Positions 1,308 to 59,862 of a stretch of DNA of 64,000 nt are shown piece after piece. Each line of letters begins with the position of its first letter. Position 1 is the first letter of the stretch. The stretch comes from Patiria pectinifera (Eukaryota; Echinodermata; Asteroidea; Valvatida; Asterinidae), in contig CM057142.1 of assembly GCA_029964075.1 (NCBI GenBank), forward strand, positions 1,937,770 through 2,001,769, read 5' to 3'. The notes beneath the pieces are model-generated. The model saw only the letters and a list, made by a program, of their open reading frames with translations, was not told the DNA's origin and did not search any database. The position numbers and the translations under genes are program-made.

Positions 1308-4300
1308 GTAATGTATTGAAAAGAAGAATATTCATCTTAAAAACGCTTTGTATGATCACTGTGATAGTGGTGCTTAAATATGTGTATCATTGTGTATCTC
1401 ATAAATCATTCGATACCAGCCCAGCCCCTTGTTCATTGTTGATAGATTGTAATTCACCATATTTTTCAATTAAGTTGAGAATTGGTCAATATCATAATAT
1501 GGATTTAGTAAACCTAAGAACTTTATCAATCAAAATTTCAAATCAGCCCAGAGTAGCCAGTCTGAAGTTGTTTCTTCAACATTGAGTAGAGAAAACTGAT
1601 ATGTGTTCCATAACTGATATCTCTGTAAAATCTGATTTCTTGCTATTAATGAATATTGTTTCTTAAATTTAATTTAACGTTTCATACTGAGACCATCAAA
1701 AAGAAAAAATGCCAACATTTAAAATTTCTTAATGTGTCTGATACATGTAAAGGAGATCAGTATAAACTACAAGAATGACTTCCCTTGTTCTACTTTTCAT
1801 GGTTTACATATTTTTTCCCTGCAGGAATCGAGGAATGATCCTTCCCAACCCGCAAGCCACGCGTCTGCCAACAATCCCGACCCCAAACAAGACAATCTAG
1901 GTATGTCTCAGACATTGCTACCCGATGGGACTGAAAACACACATACAGATCCTTTCATAGAAAGTGCAGTCCCTGTCAACGATAATGTAGCTGAAACAGT
2001 AACAAAACCCCACCCAGCCGGGCAGAAAGATGACACAAAACCACTTACCAACCCTGATCTGAAATCAGGAATGGACACAGTGACACTAACAGAAACACAC
2101 AATATACCAGACAGTAATTCACAAGCTCATACAGATCATCATCTGAAACCTGCCACAGATACTAGTAAGCCCACAGACTTGCAGCATAAACAAAACTCTA
2201 AATCACATACAAACACAGAAAAACTGAACCATTTCGAGACAAATAGAGGCATACATACTGATCAACATCACAAAGTTCACAGTGAACCAACAGACCAGAG
2301 AGACCCTCATTTTCAAACAATAAAAGACGCAGACAAACCTACTGACTCCGTCCAGAAATCTAACAGAGAGTCAAAACCAGATAAAGACCCAATGGTAGAA
2401 ACAGTAACAGACACTGACAAACAGCCTGACACACAACACAAGGTAGAGAGAGTGCCAAAACCCAAGACAGACCCTCACGTGCAAGACATTGCTAAACAGC
2501 CTGACCCACACTTCAAAGAAGAGAGTAAGGCAAAACCCCAGGCAGACTCTAAGGTTGAAACAGTAACAGACACTGACAAACAGCCTGACACACACTACAA
2601 GGTAGAGAGAGTGCCAAAACCCAAGACAGACCCTCACATGCAAGACATTGCTAAACACCCTGACCCACACTTCAAAGAAGAGACTAAGGCAAAACCCCAG
2701 GCAGTCTCTCAGGTTAAAACAGTAGCAGACACCGACAAACGTACAGATACACACTTCAGGGTAGACGGAGGTGCAACACCGCAAACAGACCCTCATACTA
2801 CAGTTGCCAACAAGCAGGGAGACACCACACACCACAAAGAAGACAGTGGGACAACTCCACATACAAACCCTGGTACAAAACAAGACCCCAACAGACAGGC
2901 AGATACACTGCCCAGAGTGTTCAGTGGAACAAAGCCACATACAGAAACTCGGTCACAAAAGATGACAAATACTGACAGACGCAAAGAGACACACGATGTT
3001 GACAGTGCGGCAACGCCACAAAGAATCCAAAATACACAACCAGTAACAGGAACCAGCGAACATGCCGACACAGACCACAAAATAGAAAGTGCAGCCACAC
3101 CACTTACTGACCCTCATGCAAACATAGTGACAGACACTAACAAACATGCACCTACACCACACAGTGGTAACCCCAATACAGACCCTCAGTCACCAACAGT
3201 GACAAACACTGACAGAGACATGAACACACATCCCAAAGCAGATCCTAGTGCAGACCCCCACAAAAACAAACACTCAGAAACATACCATCAGGCTGAGAGT
3301 GGGGTGACACCACATGAAGACCCCCAGGTAAAACAAGTGCCAAATGCACAGCAACATAATGAAATACACCACGAAGTAGTAGACAAGACAAAACCAGCCA
3401 GTACTGAAACTATTGTACACAGAAATCTTGACTCTGCAGTGAAGGACAACAGCCAAAGGCAATCAAGTGTAGATCCAGAAGATACCCATGATGCTGGTGA
3501 TATGTCAGAAACTCATATCTACTCTCTAAACAGCCCACAGACTCTTGCAGACTCATCTACTAAATCTATATCATCTACTAAATCTAATGCAAGTGAAAAC
3601 AAGATCGTACAATCAGATAGTAAACATCACATGGAAAGCCACGGAGTACCGGTTCCTGCACATTCAAACACAGTCAGCTCTAACACAAATACACCCTCTG
3701 GTATAGTAACAGCCAGTGATAAACCAGATAAACCACTATCTTCCAAAGTCGAACCATCCATGGAAGCATCTTTTTCAAACCCAAAAGATCGCACTAAGGT
3801 TGTCACCACCCCAGAAACTCAAACTGGGAGAATAATTCAAGACACCAGATTGACAGAGGCTGATAAAGTTGGAGATGATTCCAAAGAAGTCCCTCCAACT
3901 GACTTGGATGCAATTACAAGTCAAGCAGCTAATGAAAAACTAACCTCCAAAGCACAGCCTCCTTCAGGATCTCCCAAGATAACTCCAAAGTCTGAGGATT
4001 CCAGCAATCCCGAAACACCATCCAAGACTGAAACAGAAGATAACAGTCGTAAGCATCTGAAGCAAAATCCTGAGGCAGTTTTTGAAGAAGCACCTATCAG
4101 TAACACTGACAAATCAGCTTCTACAGAAGAACCAACGGCAAAAAGTACAATGTCAAAGCAGAAACCACTCCCAGAAGATGCTGTTAAACCAGAAAAACAC
4201 TCTGAGAGCAGAAGGTCAGATACAAAAGTGCCCCACATTATTGGAAATGGTGAGGCTCTAAAACAAATCCAGCCAGATAACTTTAAAAAAGTTTCTGTTG

Positions 4301-7300
4301 GCACACCTGATTCAAGCATCGAGCCAACAAAAATACAGCAAAACAGGCCTGAAGATACCAAAGCTGAAACACAAACTGTAAGAAGTATTCCAGATGACAC
4401 GGCATCTGAAACTGGAAAAAGTGTTGAGGATTTGGAAGAGAAGCCATCAAGTGGTTCTATTAGATATACCGGTAACAGTGGAGCAGCTGTCAATAAGCCA
4501 GCTTCTGGAGAGGAGCCTCTGGCTAAAGCACCTGAGACAGTCCCCTCAGTGGATTCTATCGAACAAGGAACTCAAGCTAGCAACACAGTTCAACATTCCA
4601 AAGTGTCAGAACCCGATATATCAACTTTACCAGCTCACTCTGAACAAGTTCGCACAGACAGTGATTCATCCTCGGACAGATATACCTTGAAAATTACACC
4701 CCTACCAGAAACGTCTTCATCAAATAAGAAACCTCACATAGAACAGCATATAACTTCTGAAACACTAGGCCAGAATACCATTCCAGGGGATGATTCAGAC
4801 TCTGAAAATGTGGTTGGAGGCTCTAGGCAAAGCAAACCAGACCAACCTAAGACAGAATCTGTTGTTAGTGATGTAGCCCAGGACAAACATGTTTCTCGGT
4901 CGGTTGGTGGTACAGAATCTTCGGTTACCGGCAGCGAGCCTAGACATAATTTACCAGATGACAAAGTGTCTGACTCTGGTAAGCCTGAGGAACACATCGA
5001 GCAAGTCCCTCATGATAAACCTCAACCAAAGGCTGTCAGTAATAGCAAAACAGATGCTGACAGTCCATCATCAACCTTCCCAAGACATGAATCCCAAGAC
5101 AATGAAGAGGAACTCAGTGATGAGATGAAAGCACTCCTGGCATACAAGATTAAGCCGAAATCTAAACGACCGCGTGTGGTTCACGATGTCGTCAATGACG
5201 AGGAAGATTTCCTGGGTGGTATTTTTAGTGCCCGGGAACATCAAATGAAACGCTCAGACGACACCACAAAAGATGACAAATCAGATGAAGAATCCAGGAA
5301 GCGCTTGAAAGCCACGCATCGCAAAGGAGACAAGACGGATGAAGAGGGCAATGACTTGGATCGAGCAGAGAAGGTACAACCTCTCGGAGACTTGAACTAC
5401 AGCCCGCGGAAGATAGAGATCGACTGGATGTTATTTGAACAGCAGCGCATCACTGCTTCCATACCAGATAAAGAGAAGGAGAGAGTCTTGGAGAGGAAGA
5501 GGAGACAGAGGCGTATTGAGACTGAGTTGGAAGTCAGAGAGCATGATGACCAGATGCGAGGTGACTACGGAGAAATCAGTGTAGAAGAGAAAGAGGAAGA
5601 AAAGGAAGATCAGAGTAAAGAGGAAAAGGAGGTACGGTCAGACAAGAATGAGTACGGGACAATGATGCTTTCCAACTATAAGAGTCCTGGGAAGAGTCAA
5701 GAGGATGATATTCTCAGCAAAGAGATGAGAGGTGATCGTCAACAAACTGATTCTGAGGGAGGAAGCGTCTTGACGGCTGATGCCGGCTCTTCGAGTCCCC
5801 CAAGATGGGATCACTTTAGCAAAGGAATTGATGATGAAGACTTAACATCAGAGGAACTGGTTGGGTCAACCGGTAGGACTGTCACAAAGTCCAAGCCAAA
5901 GGCAGTTATAGGCAAGAGGAAAGGTTCAAATGAGGAGACTGAGGACAGAAATCAAGGTACTGTAAACATCTCAATGGAGTCTTGCATGCACTGAGGAATG
6001 GCATCATCATCATCTTACAAGTAATGCATCATTAACCTACACATGTACATGTAATGACCCCAAGCCCTTGACTCTGTCATTCACAGCAATAAAACTCCAA
6101 TCCCTTCGCTGCCATCTTATTGATATTGAGGTATTCAAATTTGAAAGCATACGTAACATGCACTGTTACTTAAATAACTAGAAGTTTACCGCTGAGCTTA
6201 AAACACCATTTGCCACATGTTTCATATGTTCAACAATACTCTAGCTACCTGTATATTAAACAAATATCACATGTTTTCCTTCAAAATTCTAGAAACATAC
6301 CAGGAATGCTGTAAATGTTGTTGTTTAAAAAATACTTTACATGGGGAATTTTAAACTATCAAGCAAGATAGCCCTGTGTCGTTTTAACCCTCTTAGTGGG
6401 AAGTTAATTTTCAGAGCAATATACATGTATGTTAAACCCTACAAAACCCAGCAGGTCAATTTCAAGTGAAGGGGTACGAACTGTTAAAGTAACCATGTCA
6501 CACAGAGAGTCACTGCACACACAAAAACAGCACTGCTGAGAACGGTTAAGTGTTACCGAATCTGCCTGCTTGATCTGAGCTTAACCACACAAAGAAATTG
6601 TTAAGGGATTTGAAGTGTTCTCCATACTCCACAGAAGATTACCTCAAAAGGAATTTGAAGTGTGGATTCTAACTCTGTGGGCAAAAGTGGTTCTGCAGAA
6701 CTTGAAGGGTTGTGAAGTGCAGAAGACTAGGAGAGACAAATTATAATTTATGACATACATTATACATGTAGATGTACATTTGTGTACCTCCTCATTTTCA
6801 CCATCTGCTTTGAATGTTTATCTTTTTTCTCTGAAACAGGTATTGGTTCAATTCATTGGTCTCTTTTTATTGTATTGAATGATTAAGTTACACGTATATT
6901 CCCTTCACTGATTCTTTTAATATCGAAATGGCAAGATAAAAGTGATAATTAAATGACATCATAATTTGAACTAGGACATTGATTCATTTTACTTGTAAAT
7001 CCATGTGTTCTAATAAGGATGTTTAATTTTGTTTTGTGTTTATTAACTACAAATTAAAACAGGTGCAATATTGCTTGACCAAAGTGGAACGGAAGCACAA
7101 ACGCATACAGTGCCAACTGCATGGCAAGATCAGCAAGGCGCCAGACTACTTAACGCAGTTGACAATGTTGGTTGGCTCAGTAGATATCAAAGTGACGGAC
7201 ACCCTTCTGGGCTGCCAAGGGAAAGACATTCTGATTTCAGCCAGTGTCCGACATTGGATGATTCCACAGTTGATGAAGAGAAGAAAATATCCAATATTTG

Positions 7301-10300
7301 TCCACTTCAAAGTTGGCTACAGAGTTCACTGATCTCAGTTGTTCAGACATCTCCGAAGTTTCAGAAGTGTTTTGAAGATGACATTTACTCCAATGAAACT
7401 TGCCACATTTTGGTTGATGGTTACTCAAATGTAGATGCCAAAGAGTCCGAAGAGCAGGTACTGGGCAGGACAGAAGCAACATTCTTGATGAGGTGCCATC
7501 CTTCGCAGAACCCTCTTCAAGATTTCTTGAATCTCATCGGAATTAGCTTAAGTCAGTGCACGGTCAATGATGCTCTGTCCAACACTGAAGAACGGTTTGC
7601 TGATGTTGATGACAAGATTGCAAAGTGTGAGGATGAGGACACACGGGTCAAAGGTCACAAGGAGGTTAAAGACAAAGACAGAGAGGTTGCGTTAGCTGAT
7701 AATGCATCAGATCCTACTGGATCCTTACAATCACTGACTCTATCACATGTACTCGTGGACGTATTTGAGTTTGAAAGTATGAATCAGTGTTTTGATGAAG
7801 ATAAAGTTTTGAATAACAATAACAAAACTAATGAAGATAAAGATCTTGGAAACAACTATGTGCCGTTGCACAAAGACAGAGCACGTTACTCAGTAAAACC
7901 ATTCACATATGCCCCCATTTCTGATTCAAATCGGTGTTTTCATGAGACAGAGCACACCCCCGTGGCAAAAGATTTGACCACAACCCAGAGTATCAAGCAA
8001 TGTAAACTGACAGAACGTTACAATTTCCTGAGATGTTTGCTTGCTCTTGATGCATGTTTGTTGAGACCAGTACTGGGTGTTAAAAGTGTTAGTACTAGCG
8101 GTTTGTGTTTTGTGAGTGATTATTACCCATTCCTGAAGTTGTTCAGCATGAGTCATGTGTGTCTGTCTAACATCACTCTAACTGACAAGAATGAGAGGTC
8201 AATCTGCGCCTTGGAAGAACGCTACTCCTTTCTCTACTTCAGCAAGGAACAGCAAGAATGTCCTGTAGTATCCTCTGTTGTCAAGAGCTCAAACAAATAT
8301 CAATCGGATTTTAAGGAGAAAAGGTTGTGTACAATGAAAGAACATTTTCATTTTCTCAGTTTGGGTCAAAATCGTACTAATGCATACATTGTATCACATG
8401 CAGAGGATGGTCCGTTGGAACTTACCAAAGCCAAAAACAGGAAATGCTACCTTCGTGTACGTCACCAATGGCTAAATGGATACTGGCGTAAACATTCCAA
8501 CCCCATGTGTGATAGAAGAACTTCCACTACAGCGAGAAATACAACACAGAAGTGTCAGCCTCGTGATTACTACGATTGGTTGAGGTTTAATGCCAAGAGA
8601 CGGACTCAAAACTGCTGTCCGACAGCAGATCAAGAGGATAAGCTGGGATTGGCAGAAAGTTCATTCAGTAAACAGAGGAGGTTTAGAAGAGTCAAAAGTC
8701 AAAAGTGCAACCTCAGGATGCAATATCGTTGGCTGTTTGCAGGTAGTTGCAGGGGAACCTGCCCCATACATCTGAAAGATCGGTCTGTGAAAGAGAATCC
8801 CAAACCACCCGGATCTAGGAGTAAAAGACAGTGCCTGCCACACGACTACCATCATTGGCTGCAACCCTCTAACAGTCAAAAATTACCACAGTGTTCACTA
8901 AAGAAAATCAACTCTCAACTTAATCTGCAGACAGGCAGGTGTCTGGTGCAAGATTACCACACATGGTTACGGAGATCAGATGGTTACTGTCAAAAGCATT
9001 TGGTTAAAGAACATCCCCATCCACTGTTAAAAGGCAGACTTGGAAAGTGCAGACTTCAAGCCCACCACCATTGGTTGTTCCCCCTGACTAGACTCTCCTT
9101 GCCGAAATGCAGGGCCAAGAAATCTATCACAACTCTGACTGTACCGCACAGGAGAAAGTGTCAACTGCAACATCGCTACTCTTGGCTCAAAAACTGGAAT
9201 AGATATCGTCACTGTTTACCTGCACAAGAAGTTTCCCTGCCACGAACTACATGTACAAGCAGAGTAAGAAAGTGCCAACTACGTGATCACTATGGATGGT
9301 TGTCTCACATCAAAATTCAACCAGTGCGGCAGTGCTTGCTGGAAAAATTCTACAAACAGCAAACTGTGAAAAAGGGCGGGAAATGTGTAATGCAAGATTA
9401 CTACAAATGGCTGAGAAACTTGAGAAGTTTCCAAAGGTACCAGCAATGCTATGCTGCATCGGGTGATCTGTTACCACCAACTACAAGCAGAGAAAGAAAG
9501 TGCCAACTACGTGATCACTATGGATGGCTGGCTCACATAAAAACACAATCCAAGCAGCACTGCATGCAGGAAAACTTCACCACTCAACAAACTGTGAAAA
9601 AAGAAGGCAGAAAGTGTTTATTGCAAGATTACTACAGATGGCTGAGAAACTTGGAGAGTTTGAGCAAGTTTCAGCAATGTGATGCTGCACCAGATGTTCT
9701 GCTGCCACCAACTACAAGCAGAGTGAGAAAGTGCCAACTACGTGATCACTGTAGATGGTTGGCTCACATCAAAATACAACCAGTGCGGCAGTGCTTGCTG
9801 GAAAAATGCTACAAACAGCAAACTGTTAGGAAGGGCAGAAAATGTGTTATGCAAGATTACTACAAGTGGCTCATAAACTTGAAAAGTTTTCAAAGGTACC
9901 AGCAATGCTATGCTGCATCGGGTGTTCTGTTTCCACCAACTACAAGCAGAGAAAGAAAGTGCCAACTACGTGATCACTATGGATGGCTGGCTTACATAAA
10001 AACACAACCCAAGCAGCACTGCTTGCCGGAAAAATTTCCCAAACAGCAAACTGTGAAAAAAGAAGGCAGAAAGTGTTTATTACAAGATTACTACAAATGG
10101 CTTAGAAACTTGAGGAGTTTGTGCAAGTATCAGCGATGTGATGCTGCACCGGATGTTCTGTTGCCACGAACTACAAGCAGAGAAAGAAAGTGCCAACTAC
10201 GTGATCACTATGGATGGTTGTCTCATATCAAAATACAACCAGTGCGGCAGTGCATGCTGGAAAACTTCTACAGACAGCAAACTGTGAGAAAGGGCGGGAA

Positions 10301-13300
10301 ATGTGTAATGCAAGATTACTACAAGTGGCTGAGAAACTTGAGAAGTTTGCATAGGCACCAACTATGCTATGCTGCATCGGCTGATCTGTTACCACCAACT
10401 ACAAGCAGAGAAAGAAAGTGCCAGCTACGTGATCACTATGGATGGCTGGCTCACATTGAAACTCAACCCATGCAGCGGTGCTTACTGGAAAAATTGCCCA
10501 CACAGCAAACTGTGAAAAAAGAAGGCAGAAAGTGTTTATTGCAAGATTACTACAGATGGCTGAGAAACTTGGAGAGTTTGAGCAAGTTTCAGCAATGCTA
10601 TGCTGCACAGGATGTTCGGTTGCCACCAACTACAAGCAGAGTAAGAAAGTGCCAACTACGTGATCACTATGGATGGTTGTCTCACATCAAAATTCAACCA
10701 GTGCGGCAGTGCCTGCTGGAAAAATTCTACAGACAGAAAACTGTGAGAAATGGCAGGAAATGTGTAATGCAAGATTACTACAAATGGCTCAGAAACTTGA
10801 GGAGTTTGCGAAGGTACCAACTATGCTATGCTGCACAGGATGTTCTGTTGCCTCCAACTACAAGCAGAATAGGAAAGTGCCAACTACGTGATCACTATGG
10901 ATGGCTGGCTCACATAAAAACACAACCCAAGCAGCACTGCGTGCAGGAAAACTTCCCCACTCAACAAACTGTGAAAAAAGAAGGCAGAAAGTGTTTATTG
11001 CAAGATTACTACAGATGGCTGAGAAACTTGGGGAGTTTGAGCAAGTTTCAGCAATGTGATGCTGTACCAGATGTTCTGTTACCACGAACTACAATCAGAG
11101 TAGGAAAGTGCCAACTACGTGATCACTATGGATGGTTGGCTCATGTCAACATTCAACCAGTGCGGCAGTGCTTGGTGGAAAAATTCTACAAACTGCGAAC
11201 TGTGAGAAAGGGCGGGAAATGTGTAATGCAAGATTACTACAAGTGGCTCAGAAACTTGAGGAGTTTGCGAAGGTACCAGCAATGCTATGCTGTATTAGAT
11301 GATCTGTTACCACCAACTACAAGCAGAGAAAGAAAGTGCCAACTACGTGATCACTATGGATGGCTGGCTCACATAAAAACACAACCAGTGCGGCATTGCC
11401 GGCTGGAAAAATTCTACAAACAGCAAACCGTGAGGAAGGGCGGGAAATGTGTTATGCAAGATTACTACAAGTGGCTCAGAAACTTTAGAAGTTTGCAAAG
11501 GCACCAACTATGCTACGCTGCACCAGATGTTGTGTTGCCACCAACTACAAGCAGAGAAAGAAAGTGCCAACTACGCGATTACTATGGATGGCTGGCTCAC
11601 ATTAAAACTCAACCCATGCAGCACTGCTGGCCGGAAAAATTGCCCACACTGCAAACTGTGAAAAAAGAAGGCAGAAAATGTGTATTGCAAGATTACTACA
11701 AGTGGCTTAGAAATTTGAGGAGTTTGCAAAGGCACCAACAATGCTATGCAGCTCAAGATGTTATGTTGCCACCAACTACAAGAAGAGTTAGAAAGTGCCA
11801 ACTACGCGATCACTATGGATGGTTGTCTCATATCAAAATACAACCAGTGCGACAGTGCTTGCTGGAAAAATTCTACAAACAGCGAACTGTGAGAAAGGGC
11901 GGGAAATGTGTAATGCAAGATTACTACAAGTGGCTGAGAAACTTGACAGGTTTGCAAAAGCCCCAACTATGCTATGCTGCACCAGATGTTCAGTTGCCAC
12001 CAACTACAAGCAGAGAAAGAAAGTGCCAACTACACGATTACTATGGATGGCTGGCTCACATTAAAACTCAACCCATGCAGCGGTTCTTGCCGGAAAAATT
12101 GCCCACACTGCAAGAAAGCAGAAAATGTGTATTGCAAGATTACTACAAGTGGCTTGGAAATTTGAGGATTTTGCGGCGGTACCAGCAATGCTATGCTACA
12201 TCGGATGTTCTGTTGCCACCAACTACAAGCAGAGAAAGAAAGTGCCAACTACGTGATCACTATGGATGGTTGTCTCACATCAAAATTCAACCAGTGCGGC
12301 AGTGCTTGCTGGAAAAATTCTACAGACAGCTAACTGTGAGAAAGGATAGGAAATGTATAATGCAAGATTACTACAAGTGGCTCAGAAACTTGAGGAGTTT
12401 GCGGAGGTACCAGCAATGCTATGCTGCATCGGATGTTCTGTTGCCTCCAACTACAAGCAGAGAAAGAAAGTGCCAACTACGTGATCACTATGGATGGCTG
12501 GCTCACATAAAAACACAAACCATGCAGCACTGCTTGCAGGAAAACTTCACCACTCAACAAACTGAGAAAAAAGAAGACAGAAAGTGTTTATTGCAAGATT
12601 ACTACAGATGGCTGAGAAACTTGGAGAGTTTGAGCAAGTTTCAGCAATGTGATGCTGCACCAGATGTTCGGTTACCACGAACTACAATCAGAGTAGGAAA
12701 GTGCCAACTATCTGATCACTATGTATGGCTGGCTCACATAAAAACACAACCCATGCAGCACAGCTTGCGGAAAAACTTGCCCACACAGCAAATTTTGAAC
12801 AACAGTGGCAGAATGTGTTTATTACAAGATTACTACAAGTGGCTAGGAAACTTGAGGAGTTTGCGAAGGTACCAGCAATGCTATGCTACTTCGGATGTTC
12901 TGTTGCCGCCAACTACAAGCACAGTTAGAAAGTGTCAACTATGCGATCACTATGGATGGTTGTCTCACATCAAAATACAACCAATTCAGCAGTGCTTGCT
13001 CAAAAAATTCACAGTCAGAAAGGGCAAACTCAGAAAGTGTGTATTGCAGGATCACTACAAGTGGCTCAGATACTTGAGGAGTTTTCAGCAGTGTCACTCT
13101 GAAAAAGAACATCCTCAGACACCAACTGCAAGTGGAATAAGAAAGTGCCAACTACATGATTATCATCAATGGCTGCCCAACACGAGCAGATGGTCAGTTC
13201 AACAGTGCCTACTCAAAATGTCTGCCATACGGCCAGCAAGGAGGAAAAGCAGCAAGTGTCTGCTACATGATTACCACATATGGCTCAGGAGTCTTAGAAA

Positions 13301-16300
13301 ATCTCGGCAGTGTCGTGCTGTGAGAGAATACTCATCATTAATCATCAATGGTAGTAAGTGCAAACTCCCAGATTACTATCTGTGGCTGTCGCATATGAAC
13401 AAACCAGAAATGCTTCATTGTCTGCCAGAGAGGATCCCAGCAAACTTCACCATGAAAAAAGACAAGAAATGTCAAATGGAAGATTACCGTAGTTGGCTGT
13501 TGGGCAACATAAAGTCACTAAAACCAGCAACCTGTGTGGCTAGGCAAGCTCATCTAGCCAGCAACACAATGGAAGTCGAGAACGTCTTAAGAAGGCCAAA
13601 GAGGTGCAAACCTCATCAGCACTTCTCCTTCATAACTCAGTGGAAACAAGTGTCTGAAATGCCTACGTGTAAAGTACACATCAGTTTTACACAGTCACAT
13701 TCAAAGCATTTGCGGAAAATGAATGCAAAGTGCAGAGCAAATGCAAACCAGTTCTGGAAAGCAGAATACCCTTCCTGTAAAAGTAGATGGTCGTCCAAAA
13801 TACAACAGACCAAGAAGCTGAAAAGGAAATGCAGATTACGTCACACTTTTCTATTTCTGATTTCAAGAGACGCTTCATCCACAGCAGGGATTGAGGGCAA
13901 TGCTTCCAAAGTCATTAAAGACAAAGTCTCAAAGCGGTCTAAATGCCCAGCTGATGTCAATCCATTTCTGCTGAGTCAACGACCAACTTGTGTTGTCAGG
14001 ACTGAGGGAAAAACAGGACTGAATTTCTCTCCAGGAAGCAAGGATACAATCAAAGCCTCAACATGCAGACTTGACAGACGGTATCCATTCCTAAAATTGG
14101 TCAGAGGACACTTGAAAAGGAATCACCAGTGCATGGATAGCTCAAAAGCTGAGATGAGCCCATCCAGATACAGAAGAAATAAATGCAGCAAATCAAGAAA
14201 ATATCCTTTCCTGGTCACACACCGCTCTTGTAAGGAAAAGCAATTTACTGGAAAGGCTGAGACATCACTTACATCCAGGTCTTCAAGAAGAGCATTGAAA
14301 TGTCACGTCTCCAAGAGGTATCCATTCTTGTACCAACAGGGGACTGGGATATGTAAGTTTGCCATCAAAGACACAGTGCTTGAGGCTAAAGTAACCACAA
14401 CAAAAATCTCCAAGTGCATGCTGGATAGGGGATATCCCTTCTTGAATCTAAAAACTTGCTTAAGTAGAGTTAAAGGAAATCTCCCATCAACAAGTTCTGG
14501 AACAAAGGATTCCTTATTCGCTCGAAAATCCGGTGGAACCAGAATGCAGAGAAAGACTTCCAAATGTAGACGGAGTAGCAGATACCCTTTTATGAAAGTC
14601 CAGAAGAGCATCTGCAGAGCAGACATTTATACAACATCTTCCCATGAAAACCAGTTTGTGTTGGATAAAACACATCAATTCAGAAAGATCTTAGTGAAAA
14701 ACCCTGAGTGTGAACTGCGTGAAAGATACCCTTTCCTGGAGTCAAAGATTCAAAGATGTTATGTCAAGACATTTCAGAAGCTGTCTACTGAATCCAGTGT
14801 GAGACGGCACATTCCTTCAAAATGTTGGCTTCAGCAGGTCTATCCATTCTTGAAGTATTTGCATCCTGTAACGAAGCCCTTGTTACCAGCGAGTGTTCTG
14901 TCTTCAAAATCCCAGACTGACAGCCAAAAAGGTGGACAGAAGGAAAAATGCTATCACACTAAAAGGTTCCTGTCCCTTGTGAACGCTTCCAAAACTCTAC
15001 CAAACTGTAGCACTACTGAAGTGTCAACAAAAGTGTTTTTCATTGATGATGGAAGAAAGTGTAGGCTCCAAAGGCTGTATCCATTTTTGCTGGTTGCAGA
15101 GAAGTTATCAAAACCAAAATTATGTCCAGCCAAGTTCAAGGAAATACCTTTTGCCACAAAGTCAACTGCAAACAAGACCTGCCAATCAGAACACTGGACG
15201 GGCAGATTTTCAATGCTCCCATTCATCCAAATGGTGAAACGGTATGCAATGAAGCGTATGGGCAGGACATCTAAAGCTCAACTTCAAACTTCAGAAGTTA
15301 TGGATAATACTTTCATCAATTCATCAAGAAATCCATCACCCTTTCTTCAGTTCCTGCCCAAGAAGTTGCCACTCTGCAATGCATCATCAAACCAACCTGA
15401 AGAGCAAATGAATCCACAGATTCTTGAGGACCCAATTTCTGCTCCTACCATGATTCCTGGAAGGTTTCATGTTAGTAAGAAGAAAACTAGACACCCTATT
15501 GCCATGATGCTTGATGGCAGCGCCTTCAGAAATCAGATCTACATCGATCGCAGACTGGAACACAGACTTCATCACAACCAAACTCGAAATGTTACCGGAC
15601 TCCCCATGACTTCTAGATCTGAAAAGAGTCAACAAAAATGTGAAGCTGCCTACTTTCCAGGAACTTACAGGAGTGAAAATGGACGTGGAAAGATGTGTAG
15701 AGCTAGAAGCAACCATCAGAAACCAAGAATGTTTGGCCAAGCTGCCAGGGCAACGGTTCAGGAGACCTCAACAGCCACTGTTACCTCAAAACCAATCCTG
15801 ACCTCCCAAAGTGAATCCTCCACATCACGCATTTGCCTCCCTCCAAAACCCACCCCTTTCTTGGACTACTCTCTCCCACTTCCGAATGACCTTTGCCCTC
15901 AAGTTGACCCTCCCGTTGACCTGGGTCTCTCCCACAAACCCCTGGGTGAGGTATTTACCCCAATATCACAGGGTCTGGCAAGCGATGTCAGAGCATCTGG
16001 AACAGAACAAAATCAAGGTTGTTTGATTTGTTGATGTATGCAATCCTATAGTTGCTTAGTTGGCATGTGAGATATGTAGAATAAGGAATGGTGGCGGTAG
16101 CTGAAATAGTCGAAACGTCTTCAATGTTTTCAAAGGTTTTTCAGCATTATGTTTCAAAACTGTGTAGCTAGCTACCGGTATCATCTGTGTATCATTTTAT
16201 TAAGGTTACAGACAACTTATCGTTACCACTCTCTTTGACATTTCTGCCCTTCTGTCTCTGTATAGCCACTTCCCTTTTGTAGAATTTTACTTTGAATGCT

Positions 16301-19300
16301 GAACAGATGCATAATAATGTTAGAAAAGCTGTCTAAGGTTAATTAACGATGTACAATGTACATGATGATTCAAGACTTGGTGATATTTTTCTGTCCTTTT
16401 TTTCCCCTGAAAACTATTCATATAATGCTCCCTTGTGCTTTGGGGAAATGTGATTCCATTTGGACATCTTGTAGCATTTTTTTGTCTGTGATATCTTAAA
16501 ACTTAAAAGGTACTTAACTGGCAGGTTTTTCTACATAAAGCAATGTACTGTGTAACAGTGGCTAATATTCTAACAACTATGCATCTCTGAATTTGCATGA
16601 AATGACCATAGTGCATGAATTTGCATGTTTGTATTAATCTGCATGCTGCCTTGAACTAGTTTTTTTTTCTCCCAGAGGAGAAGTTTCTTCTTTAGGAAAC
16701 TTTAGCTACTCTATATGTAGCTACATTTTGTATGTCAGTTATTAAACACAAAACAGAGAATCTCAAATAAAACTGAAATAAAATGAACCAACACTTAGCC
16801 ATTGACAGTATAAATTTCTTGACGTCAACAATTGAAGTTTCATTGTCATGTTCAGTAAGATTTGAGGCTTTGCATGGTGGAGATACTAAATAATGAAAGG
16901 TTTGCGGAAACACCATTTGCGAATAATTTCTCAACTAAGAGAATGGTTCTGAACCTCTGGTTCTTTTCAGAACCATTCTCTTAGTTGAGAAAATATTCGC
17001 GCATGGTGTTTCCGCAAACCTTTAATTATTGTCATGTTCGTCGTTTCCCAGACAAATTGGCTTCATTATGGAATTGGCATGAAGTATGAACTGGCCTTTA
17101 AGCTGTGTACAGGTCTATCTCACGATCTTGCTGGGCAGGAACTAGTTTTTGTGCAGCCAATTTTGGTTAAATGCTCAAGAACTTTGTTTACTTGGCAACT
17201 CCTTGCATATGTATCAGCTCATTATCTGAGAATCAAAAATACTCCTTTGGTACTCTATTTTATACTGTCACCTACCGGTACAGCCCTAGGCCTTGCATGA
17301 CATTTATTTGCATGATTTTTTTATCTTATTAATTAACAAATTAGTCAAAGTTAACTCCACATATACCAGTACAAATAATTCCGAATATGTGTATATATCA
17401 CAAGTTCTGTTGTTGATCCCACTGAAATAATTTAGGTACAAAAATATCACACACACACACAAAAAATGTTTTTTTATTCAACACTGTAAAATACGTATTG
17501 TTGATATAATTTTATCTTTCAAGTTTTAAGTATGATTTTCAACTTCTCTTCCAATTTTGTTAACAGGTCAAACAGAGCAACAACAGCTACCAAGCAGTGA
17601 ACACACCGAGTCAGGTAGGAATGACAAACATGTTGTAGGGTACTGTGGTCCAGTGGTTACGGTGTTCGACTTGTGTGCATTGGTACATGGGTTCGAATCC
17701 TGACCGTGGGAACATGGTGCTTGTGCTCTTGAGCAAGGCACTTTACCATTATTGCTTCGTCCTTCGGATGGAATGTAAAGCCGTAGGTCCCAGGTGTTGT
17801 GTAATGCACTTTAAAGAACCCAGTAACACTTATCACTAAAAGAAGGGGTTTGCCCCGGTGTTTCTGGCAGTGGCTGCAATATGCGCCGCAGCACCTTGTA
17901 AACCCTTATCAGGTGCTACATAATGGGTCTCATATTTCTCATAAACTTTATTTACCTTTCTTTATTAATAGACATAATTCCCAGCGCCTTGAGTACCTAA
18001 TTGTTGGTAGATACGTGGGCTATATAAGACTCCGCTATTATATTATTAAATTTGCTAATAATTCAGATGTGCAAATATCGAAAGTCGATCTTGAAAATAG
18101 ACAGTTTTGATTCCTGAAGGTAGGCTTTTTCTTCATTTGGTCACTGACATTTTGAAGCAAAGTCTTTTACAGAGAGGCCATGAACACATACAGACAGGAA
18201 AAAAACAAAGAAATGTTATGACCAATGAACAAATATCAAAAATAACAAAATAACAGACTTTTAAAGAAAGTCGTGTAATACTGTCATCATTGTTGATACA
18301 GTAAAACCGGTTATTAAATTGTAACTTGCAGATGGTGATCTCCATGAAATCGACAAAAACCCTGAAACAACACATGAAGAATCAGAACAGCAATCCGGCA
18401 AGGAGCGTGAAAATGAACAGGATGCAAATCAAGATGTCCAAGTCATCGATGGAACTACTCTCCACGCCTCAGATCTAGAGCCTACCCCAACTCCCCAAGA
18501 AACGGCTCCAACCATCATGCCCACTCCCACCCCTTCACCTACACAGGTACAAGACAGGGAACCAGACCCCACGAGCAATACGCCTGGCGCTAGCCTCAAC
18601 CCGACACGGTCAACCGGCCAAGCAGACCCAAATGAAAACCAGAAGCAGGCTGGGGAGAATTGGCGATTGATTCAGCCTGGGCAGGGCAATATCTTGCAAC
18701 ACAGTGACATAGCAGATCAACATCAGAAATTCCTACAAGAGGCTGAAAATTTTATGAAGTCAAGGAAGAATACCAAGGATGCACCTTCAATGAGCAATGT
18801 TGTCAAAGATATTATGAGGAAGGGAGTGATGAGAAACGCAAAAGAGAAACAAAAAGCAACTGAAGATAACAACACAGCTGATAAAGAAGACGAAAACGAA
18901 GACGCTGAAAAAACAAATGAGCCTGTTGATCAAGCAAAAGCCGAGAATCCAGCAGCAAAAGGAGATATAGTCCTCCCTTCAGCTCCTGACTTGGACCCCG
19001 AAAAAGTCAAGGAGTTCTTTGAAAGGATGATAGAGCTTCCTCATTTCAAGAATGATCATGAAGCAGCCCTGGCAGAGCTCAATAAGTACCTGGAATCTCA
19101 AGATAGGAGGATAGGTCTGATGAAGGATGACTACCAGTTCAAATTGCGGGAGCAGCTAAAAGCTGAGAAACAAGAGCAGTCGGACGACGAACCACAAGAA
19201 GGAAACCAAGAAGGTGGTGATACAATATCAGATGCCGACACTCTTGAGCAAGATCACTTTGAGTCTGGAAGAGAAATGCTGAAGGAAGAAGCGTCATCAG

Positions 19301-22300
19301 ATGACGCCTTGCAAGATGGAGAGAGTGATCAGAAAGAAACACCAAACAAGGATGACGCAGATCCAGTAAAGGCGCTTCAAGCTGAGGAAGGGCCTGTAGG
19401 TGCTGGTTCAGAAGACGATTTCAAGGAAGAACCAGAAATAAGAGTAGAATCACCAGAACAAGTAGTCAGTGATCCAGCAGAGCTCTTGCAACAAGATGGA
19501 GAACCAGTAGAAGGCTTGGATGGTCATTTAGAGGAGCCGGAGTTAAAAGTAGAAACGCCCGTCGAAGATGCAAATGATCCAGCAAAGCTGCTACAACAAG
19601 ATGGCGATCCAACAAGTGACGGAGAAGGTGATAATTTCAAGGAAGAACCCAAAGTAGAGGTCGAACCTCCAGTGACAGAGCATTATGATCCTGCAAACCT
19701 ATTTCGACAAGATGGAGGTCCAACTGATGAAAGTGTAGATGAATTAGCTTTACGTCATATTCGGGAGGAGGAAGAGAGAAAAGCGAAAGAGATACAAGAA
19801 AAGGAGGATAATAATCCTCAAGTTGCCAAGCCAGAAGGTGAGGAGAAAGAACCTGAAACTCAGGATGACAGAGAACTGAATTGGGAACCAGTTCTTTCAT
19901 ACCAGGAAATCGTTAAACAGAGAGGTCAAGATGAAGCTTCCAAAGGTGAAGGAACAGACCATGATTCAGAAGAATTACCACATGAACCAAATCTAAATAC
20001 CAAGCCAAATCTTGGGGTACTGGATCAGGAACAGGATGAACTTGCGGTGGCAGAAGAACCAAGAACTGGAAAAGATTTTGATGCTGTGCCAGAAAAAGCT
20101 GGTCAAGATGAATATCCGGAAAAGAAAGGATTGGATATCAGTCACAAAGGTCCATCAGGGGTGGAGTCAAAAGAAACAAAAGACGAAGCAATTGGACTTG
20201 GGAATAGAGAGGATAACCACAAATCTGAGGGAACTAATCCAGAAAGTGAGCAATTTGATGTCAACAACAACGAGTTTCCTCCACAAGAGTCATCCAGAAC
20301 AGTTCAGTTTGACCCAGATATTAAAGAACTGCTGAATGATTTTGATCTGATGGATAGTACTGGAAGTGAAGAGAATGGAATTCTAGACATTGACCGTGTG
20401 TCACACGAGACGACCACCGAGCCAAGTGTATCCCATGATGCACCAGAGCCACCATCACCCATCGACCCAAACCTAGAACGGATACACAACTTGGAGGATA
20501 CAGCACCAACTCCTGTAGAACAACCAGCAGCTAGCACACCACCACCTCCTATGGCATCCAATCTAGAGGACTCACAACCTCCCATTAATGTTGAGCAACA
20601 GGGCCATAAACCATCCAGCGCAGGGATGGTATTTGAAGGTGGCAACTCCAATGTGCATCCTGAGATTGAGGTTGCAGTTCCTGGTGATGAGGATGTCAGA
20701 GAAGTTCCCAACAGGTTCAACAGAAGGGTAAGATATACTTTCTTTGTAATGTTATACTTTGGATAATGCAAGGGGAAAAGCATTGGCTTCTTTGTATCCC
20801 CCTGGCTTTTAGGCTTTTAAACCAAGAAAGGGGGATGTTGTGATAGAGTATTCCTCCTGTGTGTCTGTGTGTTCCATTTTGGTTAAAGGGAATATACAAC
20901 CTTTGCAAACAGCGAAAAACAAAACTACCAAGTTTTTACGAAATACCTTACTAGGATGTTGGTAAATGACAGTCTAAAGCATCCTGTAAAATTATGGCAC
21001 CTGGTGTGAAGTCATTTTCAAGAAAAAGGTATTTCTGTATACATTTCCAACGGTGGTCGGCCGACCACCGTTGGAAAAACCTAACTTTTTTTCAACTACT
21101 GCTCCAAATTTACAATTTTTTTTCATTCAACATGTTTGCTATTGGTTACATGTTCATGGACGGGTGCAGGCCAGCTAGACTGGTTTCCTTACCTTACAAT
21201 TTTCCGGCATCTATAATTTGAGCCATTTTATCTTTACTAGAGTCAGGGAACCAGACTACTTGAGCTTTTTTGTTTTTCTTGGTTTCTCCAGCATTTTCAA
21301 ACACAAAACTTCAAACTTGTCAGTGTAACAATATTTGATCTATTGTACTAACCCCTCAAATAGTTCATTTCTGAAAATTGCAGCAAAAGCCAATGATGTA
21401 CATTCCCTTTAAGTTAACTGTTTAGTGCTGTCATACACACATACATATGAAAAGTCAGACTGCAATCTCCACCAAACGTGGTGACAATAATCTTTGGGTA
21501 GGGGGACTTCAGATGACTTGAGACATTTGATGTCAAAGGTCATCTAGGGGTCATATGAGGTCATCATTGTTTTTGGTTCAGGTCAACTGAAAAGTGCTGT
21601 CATATGAAAAGTCAGACTTCACTCTCAACCAAACTTGGTGACAGTAATCTTTTGATAGGGGGACTCAAGATGACTTGAGACATTTGCGGTCAAAGGTTAA
21701 TACTGCCAGTATGACTGGGTTATCGCGCAAGTTTAACTTGCAGTATTTTTAAAAATTGCTTCCCCCTTTATCACAGATGTCTTTAATTATTTTCTTCAAC
21801 GTCATTTAAGTGCATACATGTAGTTTTTAAGCATTGTAGAGCAGCAAAATGTGTTAATCTTCATTCTTATTTTTCAAATATTTAGCTGCTGGAAAAAATC
21901 CCAGTCCATTTGCTCTTTTCCCTGTTTGGGGTTGACTATTTGTTATCCCCCCCCCATTTTTTATTTTTAAAAGCTCAAGTGTTTCGTTAAAGTACACATT
22001 GTTCAACACTTTTTTGGGAGAAGGTGTTTTTTGTTGTTGCTGTTTTTTGTTGGTGATTGGTCAAAATGTTACGGTGTAGGGCCTAATGGAGGATAAGGCC
22101 TCATGTAAAGTATAGTCTTGGCCAAAAATTCATGAATCCATTCGATCCTTTCACCTGATGGGATTTTAGAAAGTATCCATCAAACAAACAAAAACTGTAG
22201 GCAAAAACATGTGTATGTCTTGTCTTTTTTGAAGTACACAAAATATTGTTGTACATGTCTCTTTTCATGATAAGACTTTGAAATGGGTGACTGCGCCTCA

Positions 22301-25300
22301 TAACTGATAAATATCGGGAGGAAACGAGTCTCTGTGTAAAATGAGCATGGAGAATTCCTGGGAGGATCAAAATATTGACTCTCTCTGCTCACAAATGTGA
22401 ACACCCAAAGCAAATAGTAGGACCAGGGTCCTTTTGTGGATGGCACAATGTACATTTACATTGTAGATAAAAAGAAAAAAAGGCATACACAGTACGAAAA
22501 AAAATAAGGCTGACTGAAATAATTTTGGAGAGAAAGTTGTGCAACCTTGGGGTTAGAATGGGGCATTGTTATGAGGTGTCAGGCTATTTGTTATAACACC
22601 TGTTGCGTAGCCACACCTGTTTTCTGCATACAACCTTGTTGCTCTTTCAGTTCAAATAGATAATCCAAGGTTATAGGAATTAATGCAAAATATAATGTTT
22701 GTAAAAATATCAGTGTATGCTCCTGGATGTGTTTTTGAGTGAAAAGAAAAATACAAACCACCCCTTCAAAGAAATGGATGCACCCTCCATTCATGGAAAT
22801 TTAATGTAAGTTGACCATGGACACACTGCATATGACGTATATGTTAATGTTGGCAAACCATATGGGGAAACCTATCTTCCTGTTTTGCCATTATACATGT
22901 ACAAACGCATGCATCTGGACCGGTTTTTATCATCCTCATATGGTTTGTACATGTACATGTATGCAGTGCTGATCAACTGTTGCAAAGACATGGGCGAGGT
23001 ATTGCAGGTATTTCTAATGGAGTGTTGTTGTAATTTGGACTTTCTGTAGTTGTTATGAAGAAATTTGAGTTAAAGAATTGCAGTGATTATAGTCATGAAA
23101 CAGTTTATTTTGTGGAATTCTGAATGCCTGTTTTTTTTGTTCACCCTTCATTCGTATGTGTACTACAATGTACAATTGTACATGCATATAGCATGTCTTG
23201 ATTCAATACTAAGGGTAATGCCAATGAACAGCAGTTTTCATCAGAATTTGTTTTGCCAAATGAAATAGTGAAGTATTTTCAGTACAGACCAAAAATGTAT
23301 GAAATTTCGTTTTCACACAACGGTTGTGAGTTTTCAGACTTCGCAAGGAATGACATCTGTGCCAATTTCAGACATTTTGTCCCACATACATGTACATGGG
23401 AGATGTTGTATGTCACAGTGGCAGCTTTCAGTTCAATGCACCATTGTGATTGTGGTGCTTTTGTGGTGCTCAGTGGTCTTAGGTCAAGCCTTTACTTTCA
23501 CTGTGATGACTGGCCAGCGTATTGTAAATAACCTCCTATTTATGCTAAAACAGTGTAGTCATGGAGAGCCCTAATTTTATCCTTGAAAAGGCATGGAATG
23601 TCATTTGAAGATTTCTGTGGGAGCCCTGCATTTTGACTGTGTTTTCATTTTGTAACCTCAGCAGGTGCCGTTGGGACTAGAAGACGATGAGACGCTTTCT
23701 GATACCATGAATGCAACGGATGAGGATTGGTCTACTGCCGGCTTCAACATGATGAAACCACTACTGCTAGCGGTCAACACATCACTCCAACCACTCGTCC
23801 AAATGGTATGTGGCAGAAAAGACTGCTGCGACGACCCCCCCCCCCCCTCCGAGGTGTTTTTTTTTGGGGGGGGGGTTCATCAGCAAATCAATGCTGAAAA
23901 TGTCAACATGTTTTTTTTTCTCCAGACACTTGGCCTCCTTAAAATCAATAGGCTGGGGGGGGGAGGGGGGAGGCACATTATTTTTTATGTATTTCTGTGA
24001 AAAACAAAATTTGAGTCGAAGCTGGGGGGGGGGGGTTTTGACCCCCCAAACCCCCTCCTAGGGATCCGCGCCTGCTCATCTGAAGATTCTGTGCTGACAA
24101 GATCGGGGCAGAATATTTGTGCTAGTGCTTCAAGCACAGAATGGTGGTCATAAGTGCAGAATTCCAGCAATGAATTTGGACCTTGATCCCAGTATTTCTT
24201 TCTGTTGTTTCTCTCAGTTACCAGATGATGTTCAAGTCGCTCTCCATGGAGCGGATTTCTTGGGCATTCCTTGGCCCATTGTCATCATTATTGAACTCAT
24301 CAGCTGTGCCATCTTCTCATTCCTCCTCTGTGTTTGTGTAAGTATCAAACCCTAAACATGAAAAAATAAAAAATGTCTGAATTGCATTGCAGTGACAGTG
24401 TTTTCGTGTTATCAGATAAACTGATTAAGCATTTCACTTTAGGTGTTGCAGTCAAACCTGAAATGAAATTGTGTTTTTGAGTAATTTTTAATTACGTGTA
24501 CATTACCAGTTGTATAGGGCTTTATATTTGCATTGGTAACATATTCTTTCCTTGTTACCGTTGTCAGAGGCTATTGACTGCCACAATGGAGTTCTAAATT
24601 CATATTTTTATCGATTAAAGTCCCATCAACATTTTTTGAACATGCTCTATGTAACTTTTGGAAATAGGTTAGGAGTTGAAAGCTTCAAGGGAAAACAGTG
24701 TACAGTCTTATGTAATTACTTAAAGCATGTAGCTATTCATCAAATTTATGTTGATATCATTGAATTCACAGATATGCAGCTGCAGAAACCCAAAAGGTGA
24801 GTTTAGTTGAAATTAGAAAACAACAAAATAAATAATGCCATTTGATATTTTAAGGAAAACTGGTGTCAAATGAAACTACATGTATGGTAAATAATTTACC
24901 GCTGAAACTTAAAGATGAAGCAGTTTTAAAATCAGTAGTTTGGGGTAACCCCAGAAATTTGACACTTGATTCATTTCTGTACAGTCATTGAGAAGAATAA
25001 ACATACAATAGAATTACTTGAATATTTGATATGAATCTGTAAAGGGCAAAGTAGCCAGGGCCAAATAGCTAGCCAAAAGTAAGTACATAATTCAGACAGA
25101 TGTACCGTAGCATACAAAATCACCAAATATCATATACTTAGTTTAAATACTTTAATCCTAACCGCCCTGAATCCTTCAAAAGCCTCTTTGGCAAAGTGGA
25201 GGAATTTGGAGGATTGAGGTTACATGGCAAAAGTGCGCTACTGATTTCGTAGGATGCACTTTGTCAAGGTCTTGGGCTGGACCTTATGTTGTTTTTGCTC

Positions 25301-28300: not shown

Positions 28301-31300
28301 ACAGACAAAGCAGGCAAGTTGTGGTCACAGCTGTTTTATCACTCACCAGGAGTCAAAGCACAGCTGTATCAAGTTACCTAAACAGTCCCAGCCAGTCATT
28401 CATGCTTTGTAGGCTGGAGATTCTCAACTGTTCAAAACAGTCACTTGATTGATTTTGACTGAAAGGGCTACTTGGCTCAGAATGCATGTTTGCTTCGGAG
28501 GGTTAAATGTAGATTGGATCGTTAGCAGGTATCCAAACAGTAACCGACCAAATTATTGTTAGAATACTTACTTGGTCTGTCGATAGTAACGACACTTAAC
28601 TCCCTGTGAAATTATTCCTTCTGGCATACTGTCATTTTGAAGAAAACAATAAAAGGTAATTTCCAAAGATGTGTCAAGTGACACATTTTTTGAAATTTCT
28701 GTTTGTATTGGGCAAATCCGTGATTGGATGCAAGTGTTGATATGAGGCATGCGCATGCGCGTCTGCAATTATTCCTCTATTCATTGAATACATAGAGACA
28801 TTGTTTTAAGCCCCTTCTGTGACCTTCCTTTCCCTGTACAAGCTGTAATAAGTTGGAAACCTTTGAGGTAGCATATTTCAATTGGTCAAAATCTAGAGGT
28901 CAAGATGCGGTTGTCTTGCATAATTAATCAGCGAATCTGCTCAAATGTAAAAGACAATGGCTTTCGCCATGGTCTATTGGTCCATTACATTGACTACCTT
29001 TCGTGTACCACATTCCTAAAAACAAATGCTTGCTTCATTCCAACAGCTTAAGGATAGCTTGCACTTCAGCAACAATAACATGTCTGCATTACAACACGAG
29101 GTCCAGTCATTGTCTGAACAGAATCAGCTGTTGACATCGGCAAAGGAACAACTGACAGAAGAAGTAACGGGCTGGAATGAGAGGTACATGTACATACATG
29201 GAAGCTCTAGCGTTATGTGTAGTCTGTCCCCACTATTGCAATCTTTATTGACCAGTGATGTGTAGTAATGTGACAAAGTGTGCAGGCTCAATGTGACACA
29301 CACAAATGCACGCACGTTTGTTTATGGTGTAAATCAAGGACTTTTGTTCCTCTTCCCTTTGTTTGTACTTCAACTTTTTCGTAACAGCTCTCATTGGTTT
29401 TATACGTGTTTTCTAATCGAGGTCGTCCTCAATTTGGTTCCTGTCCTCGATTCACCGATGATGTTGCATGTTTGTGTCCTCGATTTGCACCATAAACAAA
29501 CGCACACAGACTACTGTGTGTTTGCCTGCAATCGGGGACCCCCTGTTGTCCCTTTTTTGTTTGTACTCAAACTTTTTAGGAGGACCTCCCATATGTTTTG
29601 TACACGAATCCAAATTGGGGACCTCTCGGGAATTGGGGACCCTATCGTCCTCTGTTGTTCAACGTCCCCTATTGAATGCAGAAACAAACTCACACAGGCC
29701 TACCGTACACGCCTAGTGTGGTACATTCCATTTTCTTCATGTAGTTAAGAAAAAGTGGAGAAAAAAATCATTTTACTTTCACTGTGAACACACTTTTTGG
29801 CGCGGGGAGGTGGGAGATGGGGTTGAAAATACAATATTTCCAGTGGAGAACTCCTTTATGCATAGTAGTCCTTGGGAGTTAGGGTATATACTCCATGCAT
29901 TGTTATTGTTAGATTTACAGAGTGGGCCACCAGGGGGCCCAATTTTATAGTGCTCCCAGTAGGATTCCAACCAGCCAAATAGAACTCAGAGGATGAATGA
30001 TACGCATAACATGATTCTGGAATATTGAAAAAGGCCAACAATTTGTAAGATTGATTGTCACTCGTGATTATAATTGCTGTGATTGTTGCTTGTCTTTCTC
30101 AGGGTTTCGGAGATGAACGAGCAAGTGGAGCTTCTTCACAACGAGAAAAAGGACCTCGAAGAATCGGTGACATTCAAAGACAATGAAATTGAGGTATGAA
30201 TGACTAAGTAAACTGGAGTATGTGCCCAACCAATATGGCATATCAGGCCAGTTTCTGTGAAATATAACAGTTGAGATTTGTTTTTATAACAATATGGAAT
30301 TTGCTCATCACTTCTTGAAAACAAGTCACAGGATTTTGGTAGTCATGATTTGTTCCTGGATGTCAAGTAAGATTTGAGGCTTTGCATGGTGGAGATACTA
30401 AATAATGAAAGGTTTGCGGAAACACCATGTGCGAATAATTTCTCAACTAAGAGAATGGTTCTGAAGAGAACCAGAGGTATAAACTCGACGTTTCGGTCAG
30501 TATGCTCTGACCGTCTTCAGGAGAGTGCATTAGATGTCCTGGATGTCTTCCGAAACTACATGCATTAGTCCAATGTGTATTAATTAATTTATGTTCTTTA
30601 TCTGTTGGTGAATGATTGAATTTAACTTAATGTTGATATTCTGATATGAATAGATTTCATTGATTTGTTTTCATTTCAGGTCTTGAAAGACTGTCTACTA
30701 CAGCTGAAAGGATTGCAGAGCACCGAGGAGGATGACACAGGTCAGACGTCAAATTTCAATGGGAGACTTTGAGACGTTGGTGGCAGCAAACTTACCGGTC
30801 CTTTTTCCATTGTGTGCGTCAAATTGAGCATGCACGCTTTGGCTTTAATATGACGTAAACAATTGAAAAAGGACTGGTATGTTTGCTGCCACCAACGTCT
30901 CAAAAGTTTCCCATTACATTTTGCAGAGAGAATATTCGAAAATGCAGAATTTTTATCAATTCTGAAAAAAACTGTGTTTCTCAGCTATTATAAATGTCGT
31001 TTTCTTTTTTTCAACAGAAGTTGATAATGAAGCCAGGGTACAGCAACTCATGGATGTAACAAGAGTAAGCAACTCTCTCCCTGAATGTGTATGGTTGTTT
31101 CACCAAGTGTGACTTGGAATGATTTTTGTCCATCATTCAATTTGCATATCAAGTTCAGGACTTAGTAACGTTATAATGTAAAGACATGTCGGTAAAGAAT
31201 TCTTTGCATCTTTGGCAGAATGCTAAACACCTATGTGCTTGGGAATCCTGATTTTGTTTTTTCATGACAGTCACCTGCTTATGGGAGACAAACATATTTA

Positions 31301-55385: not shown

Positions 55386-59596
<4,211 letters not shown>

Positions 59597-59862
59597 CTAT
59601 AAGTTACAAAAAAGATAAACAATGATACAATTTGATCATTCCCAAACCAATTAGGTTCTTAATGTTTACAAATGGGTCATGACATATGACAGCTTTTTAC
59701 AATGAGTTTCTCAACAAAGTTAACTTTTGAGTTTAAACTCGATAAGACATGAAGGTTTATTTCTGTGCCACTATGTGGGAGGGGCAAAGCTCCATACCCG
59801 CCCTCAATATTTAGCCTCCCAGGATCCTTTTTCTTTTCATTTGATCATAAGAAAAGCAGTGA

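Follow-up and report, generated by a model that had tools for sequence, protein, structure and literature searches.

A giant exon of about 59 basic cysteine/aromatic repeat units at a sea star TANGO1 locus and its possible part in cargo capture

What might a 9-kb exon made of repeated cysteine/aromatic units do within the gene of a factor that exports cargo from the endoplasmic reticulum (ER)? Such an exon is found in a 64,000-nucleotide stretch of the Patiria pectinifera genome (assembly GCA_029964075.1, contig CM057142.1, positions 1,937,770 to 2,001,769 of the forward strand), here called the window, in which coordinates count from its first letter. The gene that contains it is, on strong sequence grounds, animal TANGO1. 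Human TANGO1 spans the ER membrane, its lumenal SH3-like domain binds collagen via HSP47, and the protein organises COPII membranes and those of the ER-Golgi intermediate compartment (PMC5851698). For invertebrates, which lack HSP47, the placement of procollagen at exit sites was called unclear in 2023 (PMC10119292). The answer that we favour, tentatively and at somewhat less than an even chance, is that the exon encodes a basic chain of disulphide modules on the lumenal side of TANGO1 that works by avidity, and that its inclusion is possibly optional.

The stop-free frame comprises positions 7047–16034 of the forward strand (2,995 codons); when the bases of the exon are shuffled, no stop-free stretch in 50 trials exceeds 157 codons. 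Splice-like sites within this wider frame delimit the exon itself:

7063–16017, forward strand: exon B, the giant repeat exon (8,955 nucleotides, 2,985 codons, phase 1 to 1)

An earlier, sequence-only reading of the window had described a single open exon of 2,985 codons at this place, and the frame bears this out. Past 16017 the frame runs into a stop five codons further on (16032–16034). Its first methionine is not encountered before residue 148 of 2,995, and no signal peptide was seen by eye at its start.

The repeat array in exon B is real. The strict form of its unit, C-x5-[YHF]-x-[WF]-[LM], is matched 56 times, always within exon B and in its frame; a looser form has 58 matches, 56 of them strict, and 51 units follow the strict motif with a second cysteine 4–17 residues further on. 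In residue/composition shuffles (n = 2,000) the strict motif occurs 0.083 times on average and at most twice, and the other five frames of the whole window contain three strict matches altogether. A profile made from the 58 units finds 59 matches in exon B, 58 of which are expected by construction, the extra one being located near 13464; it finds none in exons A and D, the lumenal neighbours described below. The fuller consensus can be written as [K]-C-x-[L]-x3-Y-x-[FW]-L-x(~10)-C and is repeated about 59 times, a copy number that rests on the assembly. The sequence-only reading had given about 60 units of the form C-x(6)-[YHF]-x-[WF]-L-x(8-12)-C. Its count holds; its first spacing has to be corrected to x(5), as x(6) gives no match even when the residue classes are widened and the second cysteine is not required, and L-x(8-12)-C applies to 44 of the 58 units.

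The units span positions 7992 to about 15179, and along the exon the following parts can be distinguished by motif scan, unit comparison and profile:

7063–7991, forward strand: N-terminal stretch of exon B in which no canonical unit occurs, its first 250 residues net acidic, with scattered cysteines
7992–8435, forward strand: units 1–4, divergent, of [YF]-x-F-L type (motif scan and unit comparison)
8436–9263, forward strand: units 5–11, divergent, of W-L type (motif scan and unit comparison)
9264–12923, forward strand: core, units 12–43, forming 16 two-unit blocks with a period of 459 bp (four units) and coding-type variation
12924–13595, forward strand: units 44–48 and the profile-found unit near 13464, of W-L type, with growing divergence (motif and profile)
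13596–15179 (end approximate), forward strand: units 49–58, C-terminal, eight of the ten of Y-P-F-[LM] type (motif and profile)

Units 5–48 thus carry W-L, and units 1–4 and 49–58 carry F-L (or F-I, F-M). The core blocks, of two units each, are 73–77 amino acids long, and blocks i and i+2 are mostly closer to each other than blocks i and i+1. When the 13-residue core of each unit is compared with its best match elsewhere in the array, values of 0.46–0.69 are obtained for units 1–11, 0.85–1.0 for units 12–45, 0.69–0.77 for units 46–48 and 0.31–0.69 for units 49–58. Because the outer units are more divergent than the middle ones, we infer that the array grew recently in its middle. At 9723–9950, unit 16 and its linker contain two extra cysteines, in place of a tyrosine and a phenylalanine of other blocks, which are possibly a compensating pair.

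The core blocks vary as coding DNA. In a nucleotide alignment of the 16 blocks, the pooled ratio of nonsynonymous to synonymous differences (pN/pS) is 0.51 in the frame of the exon, the lowest of the six frames; the remaining five range from 0.57 to 0.93 (forward 0.93 and 0.75; reverse 0.89, 0.70 and 0.57). There are no stops in frame, against 32–117 in each of the other five. The nonsynonymous rate is lower than the synonymous rate in 97.5% of the 120 block pairs (ratio of means 0.43), with the proviso that the pairs are not independent and that gene conversion can lower both rates. Both first cysteines (C1), both tryptophans and both leucines are retained in 16 of 16 blocks, the second cysteine (C2) in 16 of 16 at one position and 14 of 16 at the other. 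Over the array (53 of the 58 units, the five longer than 50 residues being left out), weighted conservation is 0.92 for C2, 0.76 for the lysine before C1 and 0.66 for the leucine two residues after C1. These three positions played no part in picking the units; C1, the aromatic residues and the Leu/Met did, which by itself accounts for part of their conservation.

Exon B is placed between other lumenal exons and upstream of a membrane-spanning one, all on the same strand:

1825–5956, forward strand: exon A, lumenal, an open reading frame of 1,377 amino acids, acidic and cysteine-free, phase 0 to 1, with low-complexity repeats of its own
17567–17614, forward strand: candidate exon C (48 nucleotides), phase 1 to 1, acceptor with 14 of 18 pyrimidines, donor CAG|GTAGGA (score 8.6), joining in frame
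18332–20727, forward strand: exon D, lumenal, 799 amino acids, acidic and cysteine-free, phase 1 to 0
24218–24337, forward strand: transmembrane exon of the LPDD...GIPW... type, phase 0, matching residues 1–33 of the human segment used below
29020–37330, forward strand: seven cytoplasmic coiled-coil pieces (near 29020, 30107, 35684, 36255, 36639, 36924 and 37256), in TANGO1/MIA2 order
38992–39819, forward strand: open reading frame with a long proline-rich stretch, at the site of the TANGO1 proline-rich domain

The identity of the gene was assessed with a human MIA2/cTAGE5-type segment. Of 13 downstream pieces, eight score higher against it than every one of 300 shuffles and fall in order on the segment (residues 1–33, 160–211, 212–239, 328–372, 373–407, 409–427, 427–440 and 440–464). 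A transmembrane segment followed by cytoplasmic coiled coils with family sequence, as in the TANGO1/MIA family, is therefore present in these eight pieces, and a tblastn search with the segment returned four coiled-coil pieces, also in order (E-values of 0.44, 0.43, 0.021 and 0.001). The likeness to TANGO1/MIA3 and to MIA2/cTAGE5 lies in the transmembrane exon and the seven coiled-coil pieces, arranged in the same order, and in the long acidic exon before the membrane. The proline-rich frame past the coiled coils is a candidate for the C-terminal proline-rich domain with which the family binds Sec23 and Sec16; it matched no Pfam family when E-values up to 0.1 were admitted. The claim that the neighbouring exons belong to TANGO1 is in this way supported for the downstream ones. 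Exon B is assigned to the lumenal side because it lies upstream of the transmembrane exon, in agreement with the ER location first proposed for the array. Exon A begins with an acceptor, and earlier exons are therefore expected upstream of it, where an N-terminal MOTH/SH3-like cargo domain is probably encoded.

Joining exons A, B, C, D, the transmembrane exon and the two coiled-coil exons F and G gives 5,280 amino acids without a stop, of which about 5,177 are modelled as lumenal once the 103 residues of the last three are subtracted. Human TANGO1 differs in its length of 1,907 residues, including a cytoplasmic part of 709 (PMC5851698), close to the size of about 1,900 that had been quoted; in the present gene 2,985 of the modelled lumenal residues form a basic cysteine/aromatic array, so that the lumenal arm, as modelled, is indeed more than doubled. 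In exon A, a 159-bp (53 amino acid) tandem repeat at 2394–2795 is present in 2.5 copies with 89% match and is unrelated to the cysteine units; the protein of exon D (18332–20727) has a weak 37-residue periodicity for which no matching tandem DNA repeat was found.

The units resemble no known domain closely. No credible unit-level match was found in Pfam with 27 unit pairs, 14 W-type pairs, seven stretches of exon B or three consensus sequences, and none of the seven stretches gave anything above cut-off. Whole exon B had no match among PDB sequences at E up to 10; phmmer and hmmsearch comparisons with PDB sequences gave best E-values of 0.58 and 0.73 for unit profiles and 1.3 for the stretch 13137–13595, none of them credible. 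Two Pfam families rise above their cut-offs for the whole exon, Cas6_N (sum 35.2 against 27, no stretch passing) and DUF4135 (sum 29.8 against 29, two stretches passing); neither is listed for any of the 27 or 14 unit pairs, and both were rejected as sums over many copies. The W-type units resemble the C-x3-D-Y-x2-W...C stretch of Sortilin_C. This Vps10 10CC-type family (PF15901) is matched by 13137–13595 at a Pfam E-value of 0.00065, although with 20.5 bits against a curated cut-off of 27; the W-type consensus reaches 13.9 bits (E 0.07), and matches are returned for two of 27 unit pairs at E up to 1 and two of 14 W-type pairs at E up to 10. A rhabdovirus glycoprotein domain scores as well on the same stretch (E 0.00041), and among the consensus sequences a forward one matches a plant-virus family at E 0.00041, while a reversed one reaches 0.0085. 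For the W-type consensus, the only one to match Sortilin_C, the reversed form returned no family. Sortilin_C was rejected as being at noise level, since it stays below cut-off and unrelated families score equally.

Pattern matches in viral contigs (six) and in prokaryotic genome contigs (15) were none of them confirmed, searches that are silent on animals, and Rfam gave no match at gathering thresholds. In the open-access TANGO1/MIA3 literature, no such repeat is named in the titles and abstract openings among the matches listed. Human and fly TANGO1 are not known to have a comparable array. The absence of a recognised domain, as first noted, is thus borne out at the unit level in Pfam and PDB.

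The chemistry of the array sets it apart from its flanks. Net charge (K+R minus D+E, exon B being represented by its full frame of 2,995 codons) is −67 for exon A, +294 for exon B and −122 for exon D, with cysteine counts of 0, 144 and 0 and tryptophan counts of 2, 57 and 2, respectively. A basic cysteine/aromatic chain between acidic, cysteine-free arms in the oxidising ER suggests many small disulphide loops able to make weak contacts with acidic partners. Exon B would add about 59 units to the lumenal side of TANGO1, as a chain past the expected N-terminal cargo domain and before the membrane. A unit of this chain is probably a small loop that is closed by a disulphide and packs on a core of aromatic residues and leucine. 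Many weak contacts, mainly electrostatic and aromatic, could then keep anionic cargo, bulky or condensed, in place at ER exit sites; the chain would also lengthen the lumenal arm, and an optional exon B would give long-arm and short-arm isoforms. Disulphide pairing, cargo binding and isoform switching are all three what we infer from the sequence. In human cells, multivalent low-affinity contact between disordered TANGO1 regions and procollagen condensates has been proposed (PMC13255678). A stronger version appears unlikely to us: the units would be a new domain family forming a second multivalent cargo-recognition region, with a capacity set by unit number and by the splicing of one exon, and an animal without HSP47 could use it to retain collagen or further bulky cargo at exit sites by avidity.

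Several observations weigh against capture by an array of disulphide modules in TANGO1. Disordered regions are the subject of the published multivalency proposal (PMC13255678), and cysteine modules are not. The MOTH domain family, with an invertebrate intermediate, has reportedly acquired direct collagen binding (PMC10119292), and because of this a second cargo region is not needed for export in the absence of HSP47. AlphaFold runs on two-unit queries (alignments of 27 and 14 rows) gave mean values of the predicted local distance difference test of 55.3 and 44.9 and no confident fold, so the idea of modules receives no structural support from them; the candidate new family of the sequence-only reading, compatible with the finding of no homologue outside exon B, is a possibility. 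Five of the 58 units have no cysteine in the 16 residues past the leucine, and units 16, 19 and 44 have extra cysteines, so that one loop per unit is not a strict rule. The nearest reverse frame has a pN/pS of 0.565, close to the in-frame value of 0.511. With regard to the gene, five of the 13 downstream pieces are equalled or surpassed by some shuffles (by between 20 and 222 of the 300), three of these five being out of order, and 20 tblastn runs with shuffled segments gave three matches at E up to 1. Finally, the splice sites of exon B are the poorest among those scored.

These splice sites bear on a further explanation, that exon B is an alternative or tissue-specific exon, skipped in the main TANGO1 product, with the repeat isoform reserved for one secretory tissue. 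We regard this as a serious possibility, short of being probable. The acceptor of exon B has 8 of 18 pyrimidines, the poorest of seven examined, and its donor at 16017 scores 1.1, the weakest of eight; exon A, for comparison, has an acceptor with 15 of 18 pyrimidines and a donor, AAG|GTACTG, that scores 3.7. The phases of exon B are symmetric (phase 1), exon A joined directly to D, skipping B and C, remains open over 2,176 codons, and a human TANGO1 splice isoform without the lumenal domain has been described (PMC5851698). Conversely, a stop-free run of 2,985 codons needs regular translation, and a better donor, with a score of 7.0 and also in phase 1, is located at 15945, which makes the 3' boundary of exon B uncertain; the weakness of the sites, moreover, depends on the set of weights used for scoring. 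Given the weak sites and symmetric phases, inclusion of exon B may be regulated or optional. The in-frame splicing to TANGO1 exons that had been claimed stands as far as the phases, which join without a stop; the weak sites count against it, and the inclusion of exon B in TANGO1 mRNA is predicted from the sequence, with candidate exon C perhaps between exon B and 18332. An optional exon would fit equally with avidity capture and with passive spacing.

Passive spacing is the main rival to avidity capture, and we consider it rather unlikely. The array would only lengthen the arm, with no specific binding, and would be mostly a tolerated tandem duplication in a permissive lumenal region. Tandemly amplified cysteine-rich repeats are known in secreted proteins, and the array resembles them in its head-to-tail amplification, higher-order period, basic linkers and two cysteines per unit, but it differs in having no family match and in lying within a gene whose product is an export factor resident in the ER. 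Recent unequal exchange fits the 459-bp higher-order period and the closeness of most i,i+2 blocks, and the unrelated 159-bp repeat of exon A makes the arm seem tolerant of repeats. However, a core pN/pS of about 0.5 and the preservation of C2, lysine and leucine in old and young units alike point to constraint beyond length.

That exon B, alone or with exon A, is a separate gene for a secreted repeat protein ending at 16032–16034 and merely lying beside TANGO1, as the nearby stop and weak donor might indicate, is very improbable: the late first methionine and the lack of a visible signal peptide mean that upstream exons would be needed, the strand is the same, the phases agree with those of both neighbours, and the frame continues through exons C, D and the transmembrane exon into TANGO1.

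Avidity-based capture by the array thus remains the reading that we prefer. Some 60 constrained basic cysteine/aromatic modules on the lumenal side of TANGO1 would be a direct candidate for such added capture. Natural variation in length of this kind would also be of use to the tunnel and condensate models of how bulky cargo is exported.

Other elements were noted by eye in the window. The intron after exon B contains a long, near-perfect inverted repeat (16880–17030), possibly a small DNA transposon, and in the intron after candidate exon C, positions 17640–17960 resemble a tRNA-derived short interspersed nuclear element. Between the TANGO1 coiled-coil exons, minus-strand open reading frames at 33038–34526, with inverted copies near 32605–32904 and 34828–35133, resemble a reverse transcriptase and a GIY-YIG-like end, as in a Penelope-like element. 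Further downstream, minus-strand open reading frames at 55386–59603 contain pore-like TIGFGDF and GYGHISP stretches and, judging from this motif, are probably those of a two-pore potassium channel gene.

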